A stretch of DNA of 64,000 nucleotides from Branchiostoma floridae. Its lineage: Eukaryota; Chordata; Leptocardii; Amphioxiformes; Branchiostomatidae. Under the pieces are notes generated by a model that was not told the DNA's origin, searched no databases, and saw only the letters and a program-made list of their open reading frames with translations. A program made the translations under genes and the position numbers. Below are positions 5,174 to 60,786 of this stretch, one piece after another (the first letter of the stretch is position 1; each line of letters opens with the position of its first letter). Where the stretch lies: NCBI RefSeq assembly GCF_000003815.2, contig NW_023365701.1, positions 209,782 through 273,781 of the forward strand, in the 5' to 3' direction.

Positions 5174-8100
5174 TTTATTTGGATCATCTTTCATGACAAT
5201 AACAGTTTTGGGGACAATCACAATTTCTCACCATCTAAAAAGCAAAACTTACAAGAACGAATTTGTCCTGAAGGTCTGTGAAAACGTTTTGGAAATTCTC
5301 ACGAAATAAGTGGAAAATTCAGGATCTTTTGATTTCACTTGTTGTCTAGCGTAGACAGAAACCTGCTTCCACCAGGCCTTTCTAAAGTTGTCCAGGAGAT
5401 TCGGTCCACGAGAAGGGTAACGTTAACACCATTTGTAGAGGACAAATATTACTTAATGGTGACCAAACTCCCCTCAAATTATTATCCCTATAGCCTGCGT
5501 AGTTAGCCTGTTAGAGACTAGACAGACACTTACCAGGCACTGTCCCGTGGTAACTCCGGACTGGTCCGAGCAGTACTCGTACGGGGAACACTCTGCATCT
5601 CCACGGCACGGAGTACAGCTGCCGTACGGGTTACAGGCCTGAAAACAAACAAAACATTAATTACGTTGACAACCTGTGGCTTCTCCAACAACATCTAGGC
5701 TGTTAAATCGGTTTCTCGCCATTGCAGCGAACTTAAATCACCTGATTGAAAGGTTGTGTACCCGTCCTGAAGAAGCCCACCTTGAGTCAGAACTAACCAG
5801 TCCTAAAACATTAGCGAATCTCTCATAAACTAGATGTAATAAGATTATAAAGGTTGGTCATGCTGTCATTTTATGTGTATATGTGTGTATACGTGTGTAT
5901 ATGTGTGCGCTCGCAAATATCTAAGTGCAATCCTCTTTGAGGTCAAAGAAGGACGAGATTTCTTTTGTAGAAAAGTCTTTGAGAACTCAGCACATTCAAG
6001 AATGAAAAAAAAAAGATATAGCTCGATTTGACGTCGTAGAAATTAGAATGTGTGCTGGAGATAACTTCAGTAATATTCTAACACGCTAGGTGGCGTACCA
6101 GTTGTTGGTTTCCCGGGACAACAGGCTGCTTCTGTGAGTCGTCCAGCCGGCACACGAAACTCTCCACACACTGTTCCCCGTACCGGCAGTCGTCCTGCTG
6201 GCGACAGTACCGCTCCTAGGGGAAAAATAACATAATACCAGTAAGTTAATAAACAAAGATGAATAAACAAAGGTTCAAATTTCAAACAAAAAAACTTTAT
6301 TGCAAGGGATGTGACTGTGGCTCAACTGGTAGCGATCTCCCTCACAAATAGGCTCATGTTTCCAGTTAGCTGGTAACAGGGAGACTCCGATTCAAATCCT
6401 AGGAAGGCATCTCGATTGGGGCTACATGGTCTTTCGGAAGGGTCCCGTGGCTCGGACATATTTCAGAGGAAGGGCTAACATCCCCTCCCTGTACATATGT
6501 ACCATATAGCGGCTATTATGTATGATGACCTAATAAAACACACCATTTCTCAGCAATGTCTGTGGTAATAAAGTCATCTACCTATACTACCGCAATAGCT
6601 TCATCATCAATAGTTGATGACTTGTTTTTTTTAATATGGCGGTGGATACATACAGTTGTATGGCGTCATAATCAAGCACACTGTCCCTTTACCTTGCCAT
6701 TGGCAGTGACGTTATCAACAATCTATCACAGCAGTAGCTAACGTCATCAATAAGGGGACGTTACAAGCTTACCAGTGAGTCCACGATGGCCTGACGGTTG
6801 ACGGGTCTGCACGTGCCGTAACCTTTGACACAGCGGGCACCCGGCACCTGGCAGTCCGCGTCGGTCAGGCACTGGGGATACAAACAAACCAAGTTCTTAT
6901 TCGAAATGCGATTAAATGAGTTTGATCGTCTCATACATACATGAAAAAAATTAAAGCAATATTTGACCATAAAATGATGTAGATACATGGTCATTCTAGA
7001 GTCAAAGCCGACAATGGTAACATCAATCTTGCTGATCTACAAAATGTAGTAGTATGTATACGTTTTGATCCCTCATTTATTACTTTTGAAAAAGGAAACA
7101 ATGCATATGTACTTTATACTTGTTGTGAAATAAAGTTAACAAGTATTAGATTCTTGGTGCATACTGACATATACCATACGTCGACCAATGATAATATCAT
7201 GACGACTGATAACCAGAAAATTAGTGAAGTAAGCATTTTTCTTATTAATGTTAAGGTAATGTTGAGTATAAAACTTATATGTACTAAATAAGACGATCAC
7301 CCCGTACCTCTGCGGGGGGTCTGGGTGGCCAGGGGTTGCCGGTACCTCATTATCTCCAAGCAGATTCCTCCGTGGCAAGACAGTAACATAAGCTGGGGGA
7401 ATCCACTTGGAGATTAGGTACCACACGCTCCCCGGTCCGTGTTTCTCTCCGGCACGAACACAGGCTCACTTATCACACACAAAACAAACAAACAAACAAA
7501 CAAACCGTACCTCTGCGGGGGGTCTGGGTGGCCAGGGGTTACCGGTACCACACGCTCCCCGGTCCGTGTTTCTCTCGGGCACGAACACAGGCTCACTTAT
7601 CACACACAAACAAACAAACAAACAAACAAACAAACCGTACATCCGCGGGCGGTCTGGGTGGCCAGGGGTTACCGGACACACAAGCTCCCGGGTCCGGTTT
7701 CTCTGGGGCACGAACACAGGCTCACTAATCACACACAAAACAAACAAACAAACAAACAAACCGTACCTCTGCGGGGGTCTGGTGGCCAGGGGATCCCGGT
7801 CCCACCACGCTTCCCCGTTCTGTGTTTCTCTCGGGCACGACTACAGGCTCGGACATGTCACACGTCACGTCACCGGGGCAGTCAGTGTCCGCGTAACAGT
7901 CTCGTCCCTGTAGTAACAAAGGGACGCAGATGTAACCACTCTAGGATCTCGTTCTATGACTTATTTCATTCTCTGTACTGTATGTCGCATGTAAGGGCTA
8001 CGTCGCATTTCCAAACTGGCGCCCGGCTTTTGGAAACGAAAATAGAAATGTATACGTAAAAATATGCACAGATAATGCCCACTGCTATTTTCTTATTAAA

Positions 8101-22480: not shown

Positions 22481-22860
22481 TAACATCAGTATCTGTATAG
22501 TCGGTATAACCGCCCTTCGGCGTAACACACCAGCTTCTGTATCTGTATCTATATAGCCGGTATAACCGCCCTTCGGCGTAACACACCAGCTTCTGTATCT
22601 GTATCTATATAGTCGGTATAACCGCCCTTCGGCGTAACACACCAGCTTCTGTATCTGTATCTATATAGTCGGTATAACCGCCCTTCGGCGTAACACACCA
22701 GCTTGGCATGCACGCGGCGCGGCAGCAGCTGGTTATATTACACCGAACGACCCGTCACACCTAACTTTTGCACATCTATCTCTATTAAAACTATCCAGCG
22801 ACGATGCCCCTTCTGTGAACAGTGTTTTATTTGCGTGGTTAATTACGTACTCCGGTTGGG
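22481..22860 (-). mobile_element. LINE 3' end with four 56-bp tail units
   Basis: On the minus strand the end of a LINE ORF (…G-V-T-G-R-S-V-stop region) and its 3' UTR (ggtcgttcggtgtaatataa) lead into four tandem 56-bp units with gttacgccgaagggcggtta and (GATACA)n, period boundaries at 22530, 22586, 22642 and 22698. This is the same element as at 50923-51668 and 60318-60786. Confidence 0.85.
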
Positions 22861-26187: not shown

Positions 26188-27210
26188 CTACAACAGCCCA
26201 TGCCACCAAGCAAAGGCGGCAGCGACAAAGGCAACACCGACTGACGCAGTGGCCAGAAGGTTGATAAGGCCAGCCATCTCCGAACCCTTCTGACCTACCC
26301 GCCCATTGGTAGTCGACTGGTAACTGTCATAAACCAGGAGGTTTGTACTGGCTGAGGTTGCCAAAACGTTTGAAGCAGTGCTCAAGCCGTTTGTTGTCTT
26401 TTCAGAAATCAAGATAATTTTGTCAGTCGTGCTCAAGTCGTTTGTTGTCTTTTCAGAAACTAGGAGAATTTTTTCAGTCGTTTCAGCCCCCATTTTTTCC
26501 TTTTGCTCAATGTGGCAGTCGGTTAGATTTGCCATGTGTATGCGGACGCCTGCTAGGTTTTCGGGACTGTTACATTTCGGTGCGCCTTTCGTGGCAAACT
26601 CGTGAAACATCAGAGTTTCCTTCACAGCGTTTGAGCACTTTATCGGCCAGCACTGGTGAAACTCTCGCGCCATTGTTGCCAACCAGAACATGTGGCAATC
26701 GCAGTGTATAGGGTTACCGAGGATGCGCCTGGACCCTCTGTTCTTCCATCCCTGTCTTATAGCTATAGGTCTACCCAAATGTGCCTCGGAAAATGTCGCC
26801 AACTTATTGTGGGACAGATCCACAGCAACTAGATGTTTCATTTCGCCGATGACCAAGTCAAGCCTAACAGAAGTTAGGAGATTATACGAGAGATCTAGCT
26901 TGACAAGGAACTTGGCATTACTCAAAGATTCCCAGGAGATTGTTGTGATGAGATTTTGGCTCAGGCACAAACTGTGGACCATCTGAAGTCCAGAGAAGTC
27001 GTGGATTTCCTGGATGCGATTTTGCCGAAGGTTCAGAGTGTATGTGCGGCGTAGATCTACGTTTGGCAGACTTGTTAAGTTGGCATTAGGGCAGATAATG
27101 TCTATTCCGGATGGAGTTATGACATTGCATCTGCTTGGAATTGCATTGCCGGCGCTTGTGCCTATTACCAATATCATAAAAAGTACACACATGCAATGTT
27201 TCATGAGCAT
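26188..27210 (-). CDS. VLR-like LRR protein, probably GPI-anchored
   Basis: 340 residues in one exon. Residues 1-23 form a signal peptide. C28 and C40 form an LRRNT-like cap. About four LRRs follow (57-72, 78-96, 102-118, 127-145) with L-x-L-S-x-N-x-L cores. The LRRCT is clear: G-N-P-I-H-C-D-C at 165-172, then C187, C192, C213 and C232. Residues 247-281 hold a 17-residue direct repeat (V/I-S-E-K-T-T-N-D/G-L-S-T) in a Thr/Ser-rich stalk. Residues 312-340 are hydrophobic with no basic cytoplasmic tail, which fits a GPI signal better than a transmembrane anchor. The layout matches lamprey variable lymphocyte receptors and small LRR surface proteins, but homology to VLR is not shown by this. The sequence CTTATTCAG stands one base before the ATG and could be a splice acceptor, implying an upstream non-coding exon. 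Confidence 0.85.
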   Translation of the reverse strand: MLMKHCMCVLFMILVIGTSAGNAIPSRCNVITPSGIDIICPNANLTSLPNVDLRRTYTLNLRQNRIQEIHDFSGLQMVHSLCLSQNLITTISWESLSNAKFLVKLDLSYNLLTSVRLDLVIGEMKHLVAVDLSHNKLATFSEAHLGRPIAIRQGWKNRGSRRILGNPIHCDCHMFWLATMAREFHQCWPIKCSNAVKETLMFHEFATKGAPKCNSPENLAGVRIHMANLTDCHIEQKEKMGAETTEKILLVSEKTTNDLSTTDKIILISEKTTNGLSTASNVLATSASTNLLVYDSYQSTTNGRVGQKGSEMAGLINLLATASVGVAFVAAAFAWWHGLL

Positions 27211-27873
27211 TCTGAATAAGATATGAAGTTATGTATTCCTACTCTAGCCAAACTGAAATGGTCGTTCTATATTGTTCTTTTGATGCTATACAGTAAATAT
27301 TGCAGAACAAGACCACTCAGCATCCGGTCTATGTGGACAGGTGGTCGCTTTAGACAGGATTCTTATATTTGTGTCAGTGAAAAATTATCTAAGTGACCAC
27401 CAAAAAGTGGTCGCATTGGCCAGGTGGTTCTTGTGTTGAGGTTACCACTTGCACGGTCTTCAGTGGCCGACAAGAACAGTTATAAAGATATTAAACTCTT
27501 AACAGTTTGACACAAAATACAGCTTCTTATTCACCACAGAATATGCTCGAGACGAGTGGAGATGGTTTGCGGCCCTCAAACTGACGACCAGCCACCAAAA
27601 ACCTGCAGTAACGGTTTATATGAATGAAATACCATAAATGTACATTTATACTCAAAACATGTTAAGTTCAGGTCATAGCGACAAGGCAGTATCATTAGTT
27701 TGATTCATGTATAACTTCAACTATAAGGAACCGGTATCATACAACATCTACAAAAACAAATTCATGCGCTTGTATGTACAAGTTCAACTTCTTCTCGCTT
27801 CTTTTAAAGACAGTTGTTAACATAAGGACCGACGGAATCAGAAACATATGATTTATCTAGTTACATGCATGGC

Positions 27874-37600: not shown

Positions 37601-40600
37601 AAGAAACTATTCACCGATATCGCTACATGTGTAAGAAAGGAGCCAATTGGCGCCATGGCATGGCTGTTTGGCCCTACTTGAATCCCCCACTGTTACACTT
37701 GACAATTTAATGCATTTTAGCCATTTGAATGGATGGACTAAATAAAGAATTGTATCCAAAAGTATCCAAAAGCATCAGCACTTACCCAGCGGCATGACCC
37801 TGTTGGCATGGAACACCTTGGGGAAGGCCTTCTTGAACCTCTTGCGGAAGTTCTCCCCCATAAAGGCGTAGATGATCGGGTTGATGGAGGAGTTGGCGTA
37901 GCTCAGGCACAGCGCAGCCACCTTAAATGCAACCAGAATGTAGGGAAGTCAGCGTTTTAAGCTAAGGGCACAACCCGCCGGACGTGCAATTTGTCCGTAA
38001 GTTTTTTGTTTTGTTTTGGGAGGCCACGTCCGCCACGTATTTCTGAAAATTCAGGCTGTACAGGGCAGCTACAACTACTACTTCTTCAACTACTATCACT
38101 TCTTCTACTACTACTACTTCTACTACTACTACTTCTACTACTACTACTACTACTACTAACTGCTGCTGCTGCTACAACTACTACTACTACTGAGGTATGT
38201 CCAGAAATGGGGTAAATGTACGAAGTTTGTGTGTACGAACTTGTACGAACTTGTACGAAGTTCAAGGTAGATATAGACCGTAATCGGTAAACTTCGGAAG
38301 TTTTAAGTGACGTCATCTAAGTTCGTACAGGTAGGCAGGGTTGGTGTACGATGTACGATGTACGGAGTTAACAAATCTAAGTTCGTACAGGTAGGCAGGG
38401 TTGGTGTACGATGTACGATGTACGGAGTTAACAAATCTAAGTTCGTACAGGTAGGCAGGGTTGGTGTACGATGTAGATTGTACGGAGTTAACAAATCTAA
38501 GTTAGTACAGGTAGGCAGGGTTGGTGTACGATGTACGATGTACGGAGTTAACAAATCTAAGTTCGTACATTAGGTCCGCCCCATGTACGAACTTAGCATA
38601 ACCCACAAAATATAAAACATTTTAACTTCGTACATCGTACTCCGTACATTAGGTCCGCCCCATGTACGAACTTAGCGTAGCTACGTCACAGATAATTGTC
38701 GACGTTTCCCGAACTTTGCCGACAGCGGTTGTCGGAAGTTGTCGGAAGCTAGAAATTGTCGGAAATTACGTGTGACGTAGGCTGATCCAAACTTCGTACA
38801 TTTCACCCATTTCTGGACATGTATGCTACTACTACTGCTACTACTACTACTACCAATACCACTACTACTACTACCACTACTACTACTACTACTCTGACCT
38901 TGACCCCGAACATGACCCATGTCTCCGGGAAGTCGTCGTCCAGCAGGACCCACAGGTTGATGATGTGGTTGGGCGCCCAGCAGATGGTGAAGATCACCAC
39001 GACGGCAACCACCATGCGGCACACCTGCAGTCACACGGGGTCGCAGGGCAGAGGTCACTAATTGAACTCGGGTACAGAAGGCCCATCTATAGCCATCTAA
39101 AGTCATTTTCGTAAGAATTGTTGCCATTTCGACTTTGGACGTTTAAGATAGTTTGGGGTGTTTGAAGGTCAAAGGTCACCAATACTTGTTTAAAGTATGA
39201 AACCAAATACATTTATCTTAGCATGGATCCCTTTGCATGCTGGGAGGCACAGTGCACTATAGGTATCACTGGGGGTAAGAACACCAGTACCATGACAACA
39301 CAGACTTATGTCAATGTTTTTTGTACCCATAATCAAAGAGTGAATGTTTCATAGCTCAAAACAACAACTGAGATGAAATTTTGAAAAAAAAAAAAAAAAA
39401 AAAAAACGGTCCGTTCGCCCACCTTGCGTTTGCGCATCAGTGCCCTATGCTGGTTGGACGTCACGAGCGGCTGGGAGGCGGATTTCTTCCAGAGCCGGTG
39501 GAAGACATGCGCACTGGTGAAGGTGCACACGGCCAGGGGGATGACGAAACACAGCACCACCATGATTACCCAGTACGCCTTGCGCCAGTTCTGGTTAGAC
39601 CAATGCTGAAGAAGACGAAAATAGCCATGCAATTCAGATTACAATTCAAGAAAATCATTCTAAGTCTGTTACCAACCAGTTTACGTATAAAAAAAAGCCT
39701 TATTTGTTAGAAAAACAGCACCCCACATGATGAAATGCCAATGAATTAGCTTGAAAAATAAGACAAACTCAATTGCATTATAGAAAAAAATTACTTCCAA
39801 CACTTTACTTCCAACACTGAATTAAACTATGGAGACCTACCCCTCCACTACACGTACATCTAGACTTTCAGAACATCGCTTTTATATTGTTACATTTATC
39901 ACATAGTAGGTATGCAATAGATATGGAAATGTAACCTTACTATTGGGACAAAGATAGAGGAATGTTTATAGCTAAACCTTCATCAACAAAAGTCAATGTG
40001 AAAAAGAATCATTGGTGTTAGAACACTAATCTGGGGACTGATGTAATCCAAGACAAATAAACAAGATATAATCATTTTTACATCAGTGCTGTAGAAAATA
40101 CAAACTCATCACGACAAAGGTCTGGACATGTTTATTGCTAAACCTAACATCCACAAAAGCAATGTGAAGTAAGAATCATAATTGGCCAAGCACTTTTGAC
40201 CCTTTTCTGATGTCACACTTCCGTTCCGGATGTGTGACTTAGGCTCTGGGTCATTTCAACTTGAGAAGGATCAGAGGACTGATCGAAAGCTTGTTGGTAA
40301 GCGCTTTATTTTGTGTACGGATATATGGTCTTACAATTGTACATAATGGTCTTAAACATGCTAATCTGAAAAATATCATAATACAAGACAAATCCTAATG
40401 TTCCTCACATCAGTGCAGTAGGTGCGGGGTCCTTGGAAGTTGCCCTCCCACTGCTGATAGGCCACCGCCACGGGAGAGGCCAGCACAAACGCCGCTGTGG
40501 AGTGGGAGGGGGTAACGGTATTGTCAGAAACGTCGATGTACGTTAGACATCCAGGTAATAAGATACGCAAAAAAGCAGTTACTCAAACTACTGGATATGA

Positions 40601-43600
40601 TTTTAGAAACGGTCACGTGACACGTGTCACTGACGTATCACAGTGTCAGGGATAGTGAATACTATCTAAAACGTTTCCAAAATCATATCCAGTTGCTTAA
40701 GTAACTGCTATTTGGATTATTGTCTATATTCCAAAGAGCACGAGGTATAATCGGAAAACCGCTTTCTAAAGACCTGCAATACAGCAGCACTGACGACTAC
40801 GATTGCATGCTATGAGAACATTAGTTCAGCACCAAGGGCAGGGATCACTATTACACAACAGGAAAAAATCGGAAAACTGTAGGGCAATATGACATTATTA
40901 AGTAGCTAATATGAATCAATCACGAGCCTTCCTATCGATTATACAGCCATAATTTCATAATTTCATAGTTGCCCATAATAAACCACTGCGTGACCGAGGC
41001 AACCAAGGGTCAGGGAACCTTTTAGATGACGTAACTTCCCATAAGACAGCGTTGACCAGGAAAGCCGTGCGAGGGGTACGGTAGTACATGGAGCCGATGG
41101 GGTGGATGATTGCGTAGTAATGGTCAAGGCTAAGGGCTGCCATTTTATTTACCTTACCTGCTCATGATAAACCGCCGAGTGAGCGAAGTGAACAAGGGTT
41201 CATGACGTACCTGCCCACACGACGGCGTTGACCAGGAAAGCCGTGCGGGGGGTCCGGTAGTACATGGAGCCAATGGGGGTGAATGATAGCCTAGTAACGG
41301 TCAAGGCTAAAGGCTGCCATTTTATTTACCTTACCTGCCCCGAATAAACCACCGAGTGAGCGAAGTGAACTAGATGACGTACCTGCCCACACCACAGCGT
41401 TGACCAGGAAAGCCGTGCGGGGGGTCCGGTAGTACATGGAGCCGATGGGGTGGATGATAGCGTAGTAACGGTCAAGGCTAAGGGCTGCCATTTTATTTAC
41501 CTTACATGCCCCAAATAAACCACCGAGTGAGCGAAGTGAACAAGGGTTCATGACGTACCTGCCCATACCACAGCGTTGACCAGGAAAGCCGTGCGGGGGG
41601 TCCGGTAGTACATGGAGCCGATGGGGTGGATGATAGCGTAGTAACGGTCAAGGCTAAGGGCTGCCATTTTATTTACCTTACATGCCCCAAATAAACCACC
41701 GAGTGAGCGAAGTGAACAAGGGTTCATGACGTACCTGCCCATACGACAGCGTTGACCAGGAAAGCCGTGCGGGGGGTCCGGTAGTACATGGAGCCGATGG
41801 GGTGGATGATAGCGTAGTAACGGTCAAGGCTAAGGGCTGCCATTTTATTTACCTTACCTGCCCATAATAAACCACCGAGTGAGCGAAGTGAACAAGGGTT
41901 CATGGCGTACCTGCCCATACCACGGCGTTGACCAGGAAAGCCGTGCGGGGGGTCCGGTAGTACATGGAGCCGATGGGGTGGATGATGGCGTAGTAACGGT
42001 CAAGGCTAAGGGCTGCCAAGGTCAGCCCCGTGGCCGTGAACGTGACCTGGGGTCGAGAGGAAACAGTCATGTTACCTTGGAGATGTACAGTGTTCAGTAA
42101 TCGTTGATTTCATTGTTATCAAGAACTCATCGACTCCTGAATAGCTTTATGTATATTATGTATTTAAGTGTGATTGCTCTGGGGTTTCTCTGTCTGTCAT
42201 ATGATATTGTAGTGATGTACTTCATACATAGGACCACAGCAATGTGAAGCTAATTGTGTATCCAAATAAGTCAAATTTTATAGTTAACAGAGAGTTTGGG
42301 ATGCTATCAATGCGGTAGCTAAAAGGGTGGTCCGAGTGGTCTCCCATTCATACGTGTGCGTCCTTAGCTCTCAGATATTCAATTGATTTAAAGTGACATA
42401 CATATCCGTGAATCGAAGCTGAAAAGTTCTGACCCTTTTCTTAAGCAAATAGTCATTATAAAAAGCTTTTAAAAAACGTTTACAACCTCCGATCGACAGA
42501 AACTCGGATCACAATCTCTACCCTAATGTATGCAAGTGCCCAGTCTGGCATGCATAAAAGGACGAGCCCTTACCTGCATGAAATAAAAGACGAACTTGCA
42601 CATGAAGCTGCCGAACATCCAGTCGTTGGTGGCGAAGATGATGGCGGTGAAGGGCACGCAGCACAGGAGGAAGGACAGGTCCACCACGGCCAGGTTCAGC
42701 AGGTAGTAATTCGTCACGGTCTTCATCTGGCCGTACCTAGCCGTGGATAAATAAGACTCATTCATGTAATGTTCTTGAAAATAAAACTCAACTTATCCCT
42801 TGCTGTACTCTAGGGCCTCGGTTACTTCTACAATTACTAAGATAAGAAAGCAGTTTATGATACTTTTTAAACCCCGACGTTCCTAATCCAAGGTGAACAC
42901 TCTACCTAATTTAGGCTGTGGTTTATGCTACCGTCGCAATTGCACCACGGTGCCCGTAGGAATTGTAGCCCCGGCCGGGTCCCGAAGCTACAAACTTGTC
43001 CTGGTGGACTGTCGGTCGTGGTTACCTTTCGGTGTGCTCACGATTACCGTATGCCGTCCTTTTGTTACTACTTTAACCCGTAGTTAAAATCAACCCTGGC
43101 CCGGTTACGCCCCTCCCAAAAAAAGAAAATGACATAAAAGATACCCCAGGGTGTCCTCCGAGGCGAAGTAGGGGTCGTACACCAAAAGTGCAAAAGAAAA
43201 AAGCATGTTAACTACCCGTCGGGTCCCTCTTTTCCACGCAATTGTGGCCAAGGCTTTACGGTCCATAGTTAAGAGCATTTAGCACTAGACCACGCACTTA
43301 CCTGGCGATGACGTAGATGACCAGGCCATTTCCGGTCACGCCCACCAGCGTGATGATGGAGAAGACAAGCGGCACCACCCATGCCTCCACCCCGAGCTGG
43401 AGCGGCTTCACAACGGCCTCTGCCGGTTCTGTCAGAAACAGCAACAAAAGACAGAGTGATAATGGAGAAGAAAAAACAGTATCAGTCAGGACCAAAGCAA
43501 TGATAGTGAATGAGGTGTAGTTGAAGAAGAAGTGGCACTTTTTTATATTTACTTTTGGACAGACGAGAACAATGTGGCACTGCACTCATTATAATGACTC

Positions 43601-50922: not shown

Positions 50923-51668
50923 TTGGATCAATACAATGAAACAACTGGGCTGAAGTGGGGTGTCCATGTTAACAAAATAACAACCAAGGCTAAACAGACA
51001 TTGGGAGTAATCAAACGCAACTTTTGGGCATGCCCAGCCAGGGTAAAATCACTTGCATACACGTCACTGGTAAGACCTAACCTTGAATATGCTGCAACAG
51101 TATGGGACCCGTATACAAAGAAAGACAAAGATAAACTGGAAAGGGTACAGAACCAAGCTGCCAGATTCTGCACAAACAACTACAACAGGGATTCTAATGT
51201 TACCAAAATGAAAACAGATTTGCAGTGGATGTCACTTGAAGACAGAAGAAAAATATCCAGCCTTTCCATGATGTTCACAATGACCAATAAAATGGTGGAC
51301 GTACCAACAGATAAGTATCTAATACCAGTTCAAAAAAGAACAAGAAACAGTCATGCCTTCAAATACCAGAGTTACCAAATTCGTATTTTCTCAGAACTAT
51401 CGTAGAGTGAAATATATTATCACAAAGCACAGTAGGGGCATCTTCTCTGGATAGTTCCAAAGAACGCTTGCAGAAAGATGTGCAAAAGTTAGGTGTGACG
51501 GGTCGTTCAGTGCATAGTGTAATATAACCAGCTGCTGCCGCGGCGCGTCCCTGCGAAGCTGGTGTGTTACGCCGAAGGGCGGTAATACCGGCTATATATA
51601 GATACAGATACAGAAGCTGGTGTGTTACGCCGAAGGGCGGTTATACCGGCTATATAGATACAGATAGG
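50923..51668 (+). mobile_element. CR1-like LINE fragment: RT C-terminus, UTR and two tail units
   Basis: The open frame 50923-51405 (160 residues) matches the C-terminal side of non-LTR reverse transcriptases: T-L-G-V-I-K-R-N-F, A-Y-T-S-L-V-R-P-N-L-E-Y-A, V-W-D-P-Y and V-Q-N-Q-A-A-R-F. It breaks just after S-Y-Q-I-R-I-F. The true C-terminal segment then appears (S-S-L-D-S…L-G-V-T-G-R-S-V) from about 51432, and the 3' UTR leads into two 56-bp tail units at 51555 and 51613. The 5' part, endonuclease and RT catalytic core are missing, so the copy is dead. Confidence 0.85.
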
Positions 51669-60317: not shown

Positions 60318-60786
60318 ATAAACAAGCACAGTAGGGGCATCTTCTCTGGATAGTTTTAAAGAACGCTTGCAGATAGATGTACAAAAGTTAGGTGTGACGG
60401 GTCGTTCAGTGTAATATAACCAGCTGCTGCCGCGCCGCGTGCCTGCGAAGTTGGTGTGTTACGCCGAAGGGCGGTTGTACCGGCTATATGGATACAGATA
60501 CAGAAGCTGGTGTGTTACGCCGAAGGGCGGTTATACCGGCTATATAGATACAGATACAGAAGCTGGTGTGTTACGCCGAAGGGCGGTTATACCGGCTATA
60601 TGGATACAGATACAGAAGCTGGTGTGTTACGCCGAAGGGCGGTTATACCGGCTATATGGATACAGATACAGAAGCTGGTGTGTTACGCCGAAGGGCGGTT
60701 ATACCGGCTATATGGATACAGATACAGAAGCTGGTGTGTTACGCCGAAGGGCGGTTATACCGGCTATATGGATACAGATACAGAAA
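60318..60786 (+). mobile_element. LINE 3' end with six 56-bp tail units
   Basis: ggcatcttctctggatagtt encodes the last residues of the LINE ORF (S-S-L-D-S-F-K-E-R-L-Q to G-R-S-V-stop), then the UTR, then six exact-period units starting at 60447, 60503, 60559, 60615, 60671 and 60727. Because 56 is not a multiple of three, long ORFs appear in all frames here; none is a gene. Confidence 0.9.

Follow-up and report, generated by a model that had tools for sequence, protein, structure and literature searches.

In a 64,000-nucleotide stretch of Branchiostoma floridae DNA (the window; contig NW_023365701.1, positions 209,782 to 273,781), a class A G-protein-coupled receptor gene on the minus strand carries a tandem array in which the end of one exon, here called the live exon, recurs together with its splice donor. 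We consider that this array is very probably a donor-side "mirage", a minisatellite at an exon boundary that has no cellular function and is spliced out with its intron. Mirages are minisatellite-like tandem duplications of exon-intron boundaries already described in lancelets, and the array appears to be an ordinary new example of them. The original prediction, made from the DNA letters, had left open whether these repeats are a dead minisatellite born from an exon, a reservoir for gene conversion or a source of rare isoforms. The first of these is favoured and agrees with the published mirages.

Structure of the 176-bp array

Tandem Repeats Finder places the array at 41026-42018, with a period of 176, 5.7 copies, 94% matches and a score of 1725, the highest in its 20-row list for the window. 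Each unit comprises the last 107 nt of the 136-nt live exon, with the donor, and 69 nt of intron, and six such units (C1 to C6) lie head-to-tail on the minus strand. The program's result and the six delimited units agree with the five partial copies in a 176-bp period that had been predicted downstream of the exon. The predicted end at 41045 has to be moved, as the intron remnant of the last copy extends at least as far as about 40970. Neither the acceptor nor the first 29 nt of the exon recurs in the copies, and a normal phase 0 acceptor (CCCCAG/GTCACG, the slash marking the splice junction) is found at the live exon alone, as predicted; the live donor is in phase 1 (GCAG/GTACGC).

The units decay along the array. 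Relative to the 107 nt of the live exon, the exon parts of C2, C3 and C4 have 3, 2 and 3 mismatches, all of them synonymous, while C5 has 7 plus one inserted base and C6 has 8. Among themselves, C2-C4 differ at no more than 2 of 107 positions, and C6 differs from each other unit at 6 to 12. The intron part of C6 differs from that of C1 at 18 of 69 aligned positions, plus gaps, and continues into ordinary intron, so C6 seems to be the old outer edge of the array. The donor GT is kept in C1-C5 and lost in C6. These observations bear out the predicted state of the copies: C2, C3 and C4 encode the live peptide unchanged and keep the donor, C5 is broken by a TAC to TAG stop and an inserted C, and C6 is broken by the change of GT to TT and of R to H, with further changes of V to L and A to E. 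The real acceptor and the full exon are thus attached to the first unit only, the central units are near-identical, and the far edge has diverged.

Table 1 Array units, receptor exons and a second candidate array in the window
Feature	Position	Strand	Remarks
Unit C1 (live)	41842..42017	-	3' 107 nt of live exon and 69 nt of intron
Unit C2	41666..41841	-	Peptide identical to that of live exon
Unit C3	41490..41665	-	Peptide identical to that of live exon; 1/176 positions differ from C2
Unit C4	41319..41489	-	171 nt, intron part shortened by 5-nt deletion; peptide identical to that of live exon
Unit C5	41142..41318	-	Broken: in-frame TAG and inserted C
Unit C6	40950..41141, far end approximate	-	Oldest-looking; donor GT lost, R to H
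Receptor exon, transmembrane helix (TM) 1	43302..43428	-	Modelled, open spliced frame
Receptor exon, TM2 to start of TM3	42574..42736	-	Modelled
Live exon: end of TM3, DRY motif, second intracellular loop (ICL2), first half of TM4	41911..42046	-	136 nt; frame open with neighbour exons
Next receptor exon: end of TM4, second extracellular loop (ECL2)	40409..40494	-	Modelled
Receptor exon, TM5	39423..39605	-	Modelled
Receptor exon, TM6	38899..39024	-	Modelled
Receptor exon, TM7	37786..37921	-	Modelled
Second candidate mirage	7420..7850	-	127-129 nt unit, four units; exon end CCCGCAGAG/GTACGG; cysteine-rich open reading frame

Comparison with known lancelet mirages

Lancelet mirages have been reported in Adh3, in the globin genes BflGb6 and BflGb9, in TnC and in PGBD5 (PMC3087553, PMC3902484). 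As far as the published descriptions go, the present array shares their features at the level of sequence. Its units are minisatellite-like and head-to-tail, each crosses an exon-intron boundary, and C1-C5 each include a splice signal; such units, with splice signals in many of them, also characterize BflGb6 and BflGb9 (PMC3087553). Homogenization has affected its central units and left the edge unit out, as the mismatch counts of C2-C4 and C6 indicate; likewise, the inner units of BflGb6 are described as homogenized and its boundary units as excluded from homogenization (PMC3087553). BflGb6 has units of 150-160 bp, one haplotype having 6 of them and another 3 (PMC3087553). It duplicates the acceptor side, whereas the present array duplicates the donor side, and its haplotypes and splicing were examined, whereas our analysis uses sequence alone. 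The 3' exon boundary is duplicated in BflGb9 (PMC3087553), as it is here. The Adh3 mirages (Canestro et al. 2002), cited in PMC3087553 as an earlier case, have units of only 10-72 bp and show somatic instability, unlike the 176-bp unit described here; data on Adh3 and the RT-PCR (reverse transcription PCR) of that study suggest regular splicing despite mirages. PGBD5 has 60- and 108-bp tandem repeats over splice sites, so that both the gene and the unit lengths differ from ours. A gene model of PGBD5 had used part of the repeat as an extra exon without transcript support, and its authors excluded this exon (PMC3902484). Gene predictors may annotate such arrays as false exons, as those authors judged for PGBD5.

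Related duplications are on record. Introns of VCBP3 are described as harbouring whole exons or exon fragments, some of which have canonical splice sites (PMC2632668), and intron gain by tandem duplication is reported for the potato RNA-dependent RNA polymerase gene (PMC4974935). The latter resembles our case in that a tandem duplication crosses an exon-intron boundary, but a new intron arose in potato, whereas the intron position here is shared with paralogues that yielded no array. The corresponding exons of the paralogous loci L062 and L063 end at the same place (TGGGCAG/GT), and no array was found there. As this intron position is common to at least these two loci, the array most probably originated within an intron that was already present. 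Among the open-licence papers listed, no title or abstract opening concerns this array. With it, exon-boundary minisatellites in lancelets extend to a neuropeptide-receptor-like gene.

Proposed origin and splicing of the array

We propose that the array began with a tandem duplication of a segment that runs from the 3' end of the exon through the splice donor and 69 nt into the intron. The first join would probably have formed at a TGGC microhomology between TTGGCAGCC in the exon and ATGGCTGTA in the intron, and slippage or unequal exchange would then have expanded the array. The order of splice-site use that we suppose follows from exon definition, which is well established. Across the live exon, the spliceosome would recognize the first donor together with the sole good acceptor, and it would join this exon to the acceptor at 40494, its likely splice partner; the whole array would be discarded as intron, and the remaining donors would act as decoys without a partner. 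Exon-boundary arrays offer a natural experiment on how decoy donors are passed over by the spliceosome. An array of this kind would have no cellular function, and its copy number should differ between haplotypes.

Alternative explanations

The copies might instead be optional cassette exons, C2-C4 being spliced in to produce receptors with additional DRY/ICL2/TM4 segments. As predicted, each of these copies offers an open 102-nt cassette of phase 1-1 with its donor kept, and the frame is maintained with one, two or three inserted copies. We nevertheless regard their use as very unlikely. The candidate acceptor of each copy is the AG within AAAATGGCAG; the predicted "possible acceptor" is there, but almost without a pyrimidine tract. 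By a simple measure, which is neither a trained splice model nor a splicing assay, pyrimidines make up 20-25% of the 20 nt before the CAG in 5/5 copies, compared with 60-80% at 7/7 modelled receptor acceptors. With acceptors so poor in pyrimidines, the array most likely leaves with the intron. Each duplicate in an alternatively spliced tandem exon duplication has a usable acceptor and donor, whereas the acceptors here are poor and the exon's first 29 nt, with its own acceptor, are uncopied. A cassette carries the last part of TM3 together with half of TM4, so that inserting one or more would duplicate fragments of two helices. The seven-helix topology should be disrupted, and we infer that the product would not fold as a receptor. 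In comparable published mirages, RT-PCR suggested regular splicing (PMC3087553). The predicted rare isoforms with extra TM4 segments thus find no support, given the poor acceptors, the probably broken fold and the 2/5 copies that are unusable as cassettes. Past the donor, the fourth codon in frame is a stop in the live unit, C2, C3 and C5, but not in C4; C6 has no donor. An assembly artefact, in which the animal itself has fewer copies or no array, is also conceivable, since C2 and C3 differ at a single position, the window lies on a contig of 504,810 bases that is not chromosome-size, and the draft-genome assembly of BflGb6 haplotype 1 is reported as aberrant (PMC3087553). Against this, five of the units (C1, C2, C4, C5 and C6) clearly differ from one another, changes private to a unit are found in C4-C6, and the decay is graded along the array, which makes an artefact extremely unlikely.

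Several observations weigh against an array that is simply inert debris. Counting each distinct base at a column as one event and leaving out the inserted base of C5, the exon parts of the units show 14 substitution events, 9 synonymous and 5 nonsynonymous, where the expected synonymous share is about 0.27 (P about 0.004). Within C1-C4, 4/4 events are synonymous (P about 0.005). This lean would exceed that of five copies dead from birth, had all changes arisen there. C6 differs from the live exon at 8/107 positions in its exon part, compared with 18/69 differences from C1 in its intron part (Fisher P 0.001), and the skew and this contrast together suggest that the units spent part of their history as, or exchanging with, a selected exon. 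Finally, a test of 19 exon ends at 12 paralogous loci, with donors picked by a simple scripted rule, gave a clear downstream copy at only one end (locus L067), so the duplicating process is not everywhere. The skew and the C6 contrast are compatible with a sequence reservoir whose near-identical copies convert with the live exon, homogenizing it or bringing in variants, and no two of the third-position sites at columns 93, 96 and 99 fit a single tree without recurrent change. However, the sites are few, and the same pattern would result from repeated mutation at a site or from unequal exchange as the array turns over; C2-C4 differ from the live exon only synonymously, with no visible protein effect; and exchange is a by-product of tandem repeats that gives no evidence of function. 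All five nonsynonymous events are private to C5 or C6. Taken alone, the private events number 5 synonymous and 5 nonsynonymous (P about 0.11), so the skew comes mostly from the four variants that units share, each of which is synonymous. If changes in the live exon were later copied outward, or if exchange took place in the past, the skew and the C6 contrast would be explained equally well with no need for an array function. Selection on the copies is not needed for the pattern, although with so few data it may have played a part. The predicted conversion reservoir therefore fits the skew, yet the same skew is explained without it, and we judge such a reservoir unlikely. A stronger version, in which the array is a live partner of the DRY/ICL2 exon, with conversion keeping C2-C4 coding-competent and sometimes feeding variants or a whole cassette into the receptor, seems to us quite improbable.

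Possible recurrence in the genome and in the window

At the paralogue L067 (G000:C10:16699600-16703800, minus strand), the end of the TM1-3 exon and its donor recur twice downstream, over 39 nt at 95% and 32 nt at 94%. None of 200 shuffles gave a donor-spanning duplication as good, and the copies are degenerate and older-looking. The next-best paralogue ends were matched by more shuffles (TM1-3 of L075, 9/200; TM1-3 of L062, 11/200; DRY exon of L063, 12/200), and the L075 alignment does not span the exon side of the donor. The TM1-3 end of L076 was reached by 200/200 shuffles, as a simple repeat would be. The seven paralogous DRY exons tested all lack a copy beyond chance within the 960 nt searched downstream, so the array looks locus-specific. 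Tandem Repeats Finder lists no array overlapping the exon matches at the paralogue loci, including L067, whose copies are thus too degenerate or too spaced for this tool. A 7tm_1 search of the genome gave 148 matches, mostly the whole domain in one frame, and was uninformative on exon ends.

A search of the genome for a 32-base exact pattern of the array found it at 5 places, all in units C1 to C5. We note that the search of the genome with the 318-residue receptor protein gave 129 matches, a lower bound with 125 of 862 candidates scored. No second allele is among the matches listed, the top identity outside the array's own contig being 65%. Six of the listed places are on that contig, and one of these, the live exon, lies in the array, so short exons can be missed by this search. 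We think it improbable that the assembly contains a second allele.

Within the window, the array at 7420-7850 is probably a second exon-boundary array of the mirage type. The coding status of its exon is conjectural, with no Pfam match at E 0.1 and no other genome match at E 0.01. The last unit contains an insert of about 75 bp with GGTACC on both sides and inverted ends ATCTCCAAG and CTTGGAGAT, resembling a small mobile element. Together with the decayed array in the paralogue, this probable second array within 64 kb suggests that the process is recurrent in the genome. Five of the six other exon ends of the receptor gene were reached by 20 to 408 of 500 shuffles. At the exon 40494-40409, a possible degenerate downstream copy was matched by 3/500 shuffles, but a second test gave 13/2000, with a best alignment confined to the intron, and no mirage is claimed there on such weak statistics. 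The possible decayed copy of this donor region is at 40013-40094, compared with 40347-40421 (minus strand), about 330 bp downstream.

The receptor gene and other observations

Seven exons, covering TM1 to TM7, were modelled for the receptor, and they join into a single open frame of 318 amino acids, the two ends of the gene lying outside the model. The joined protein matches 7tm_1 in Pfam with an E-value of 2.1e-65. Judged by E-values only, its top solved relatives are the KiSS-1 receptor, with 5e-67, and galanin receptor 1, with 2.4e-66. The predicted label "kisspeptin-receptor-like" is a fair but provisional one. The live exon, predicted to be exon 4, is the third of the seven modelled, and its true number hinges on unmapped 5' exons. 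The region from the end of TM4 to TM7 is divided among four exons (37786-40494), whereas most of it is one continuous match in the paralogues L062, L063 and L076; introns were either gained in the window receptor or lost in those paralogues. The 12-mer TATGGGCAGGTA is found both at the live donor (41908-41919) and 53 nt inside the intron (41855-41866), where it forms CAG/GTAAGG, a better donor by consensus.

Elsewhere in the window, a closely similar minisatellite unit of 56-58 bp is present in three separate arrays in both orientations (22485-22704, 51555-51666 and 60447-60785). An open frame of 346 amino acids at 26191-27228 (minus strand) encodes leucine-rich repeats (LRR_8, 2.3e-11) and contains a two-copy tandem repeat of 51 bp.
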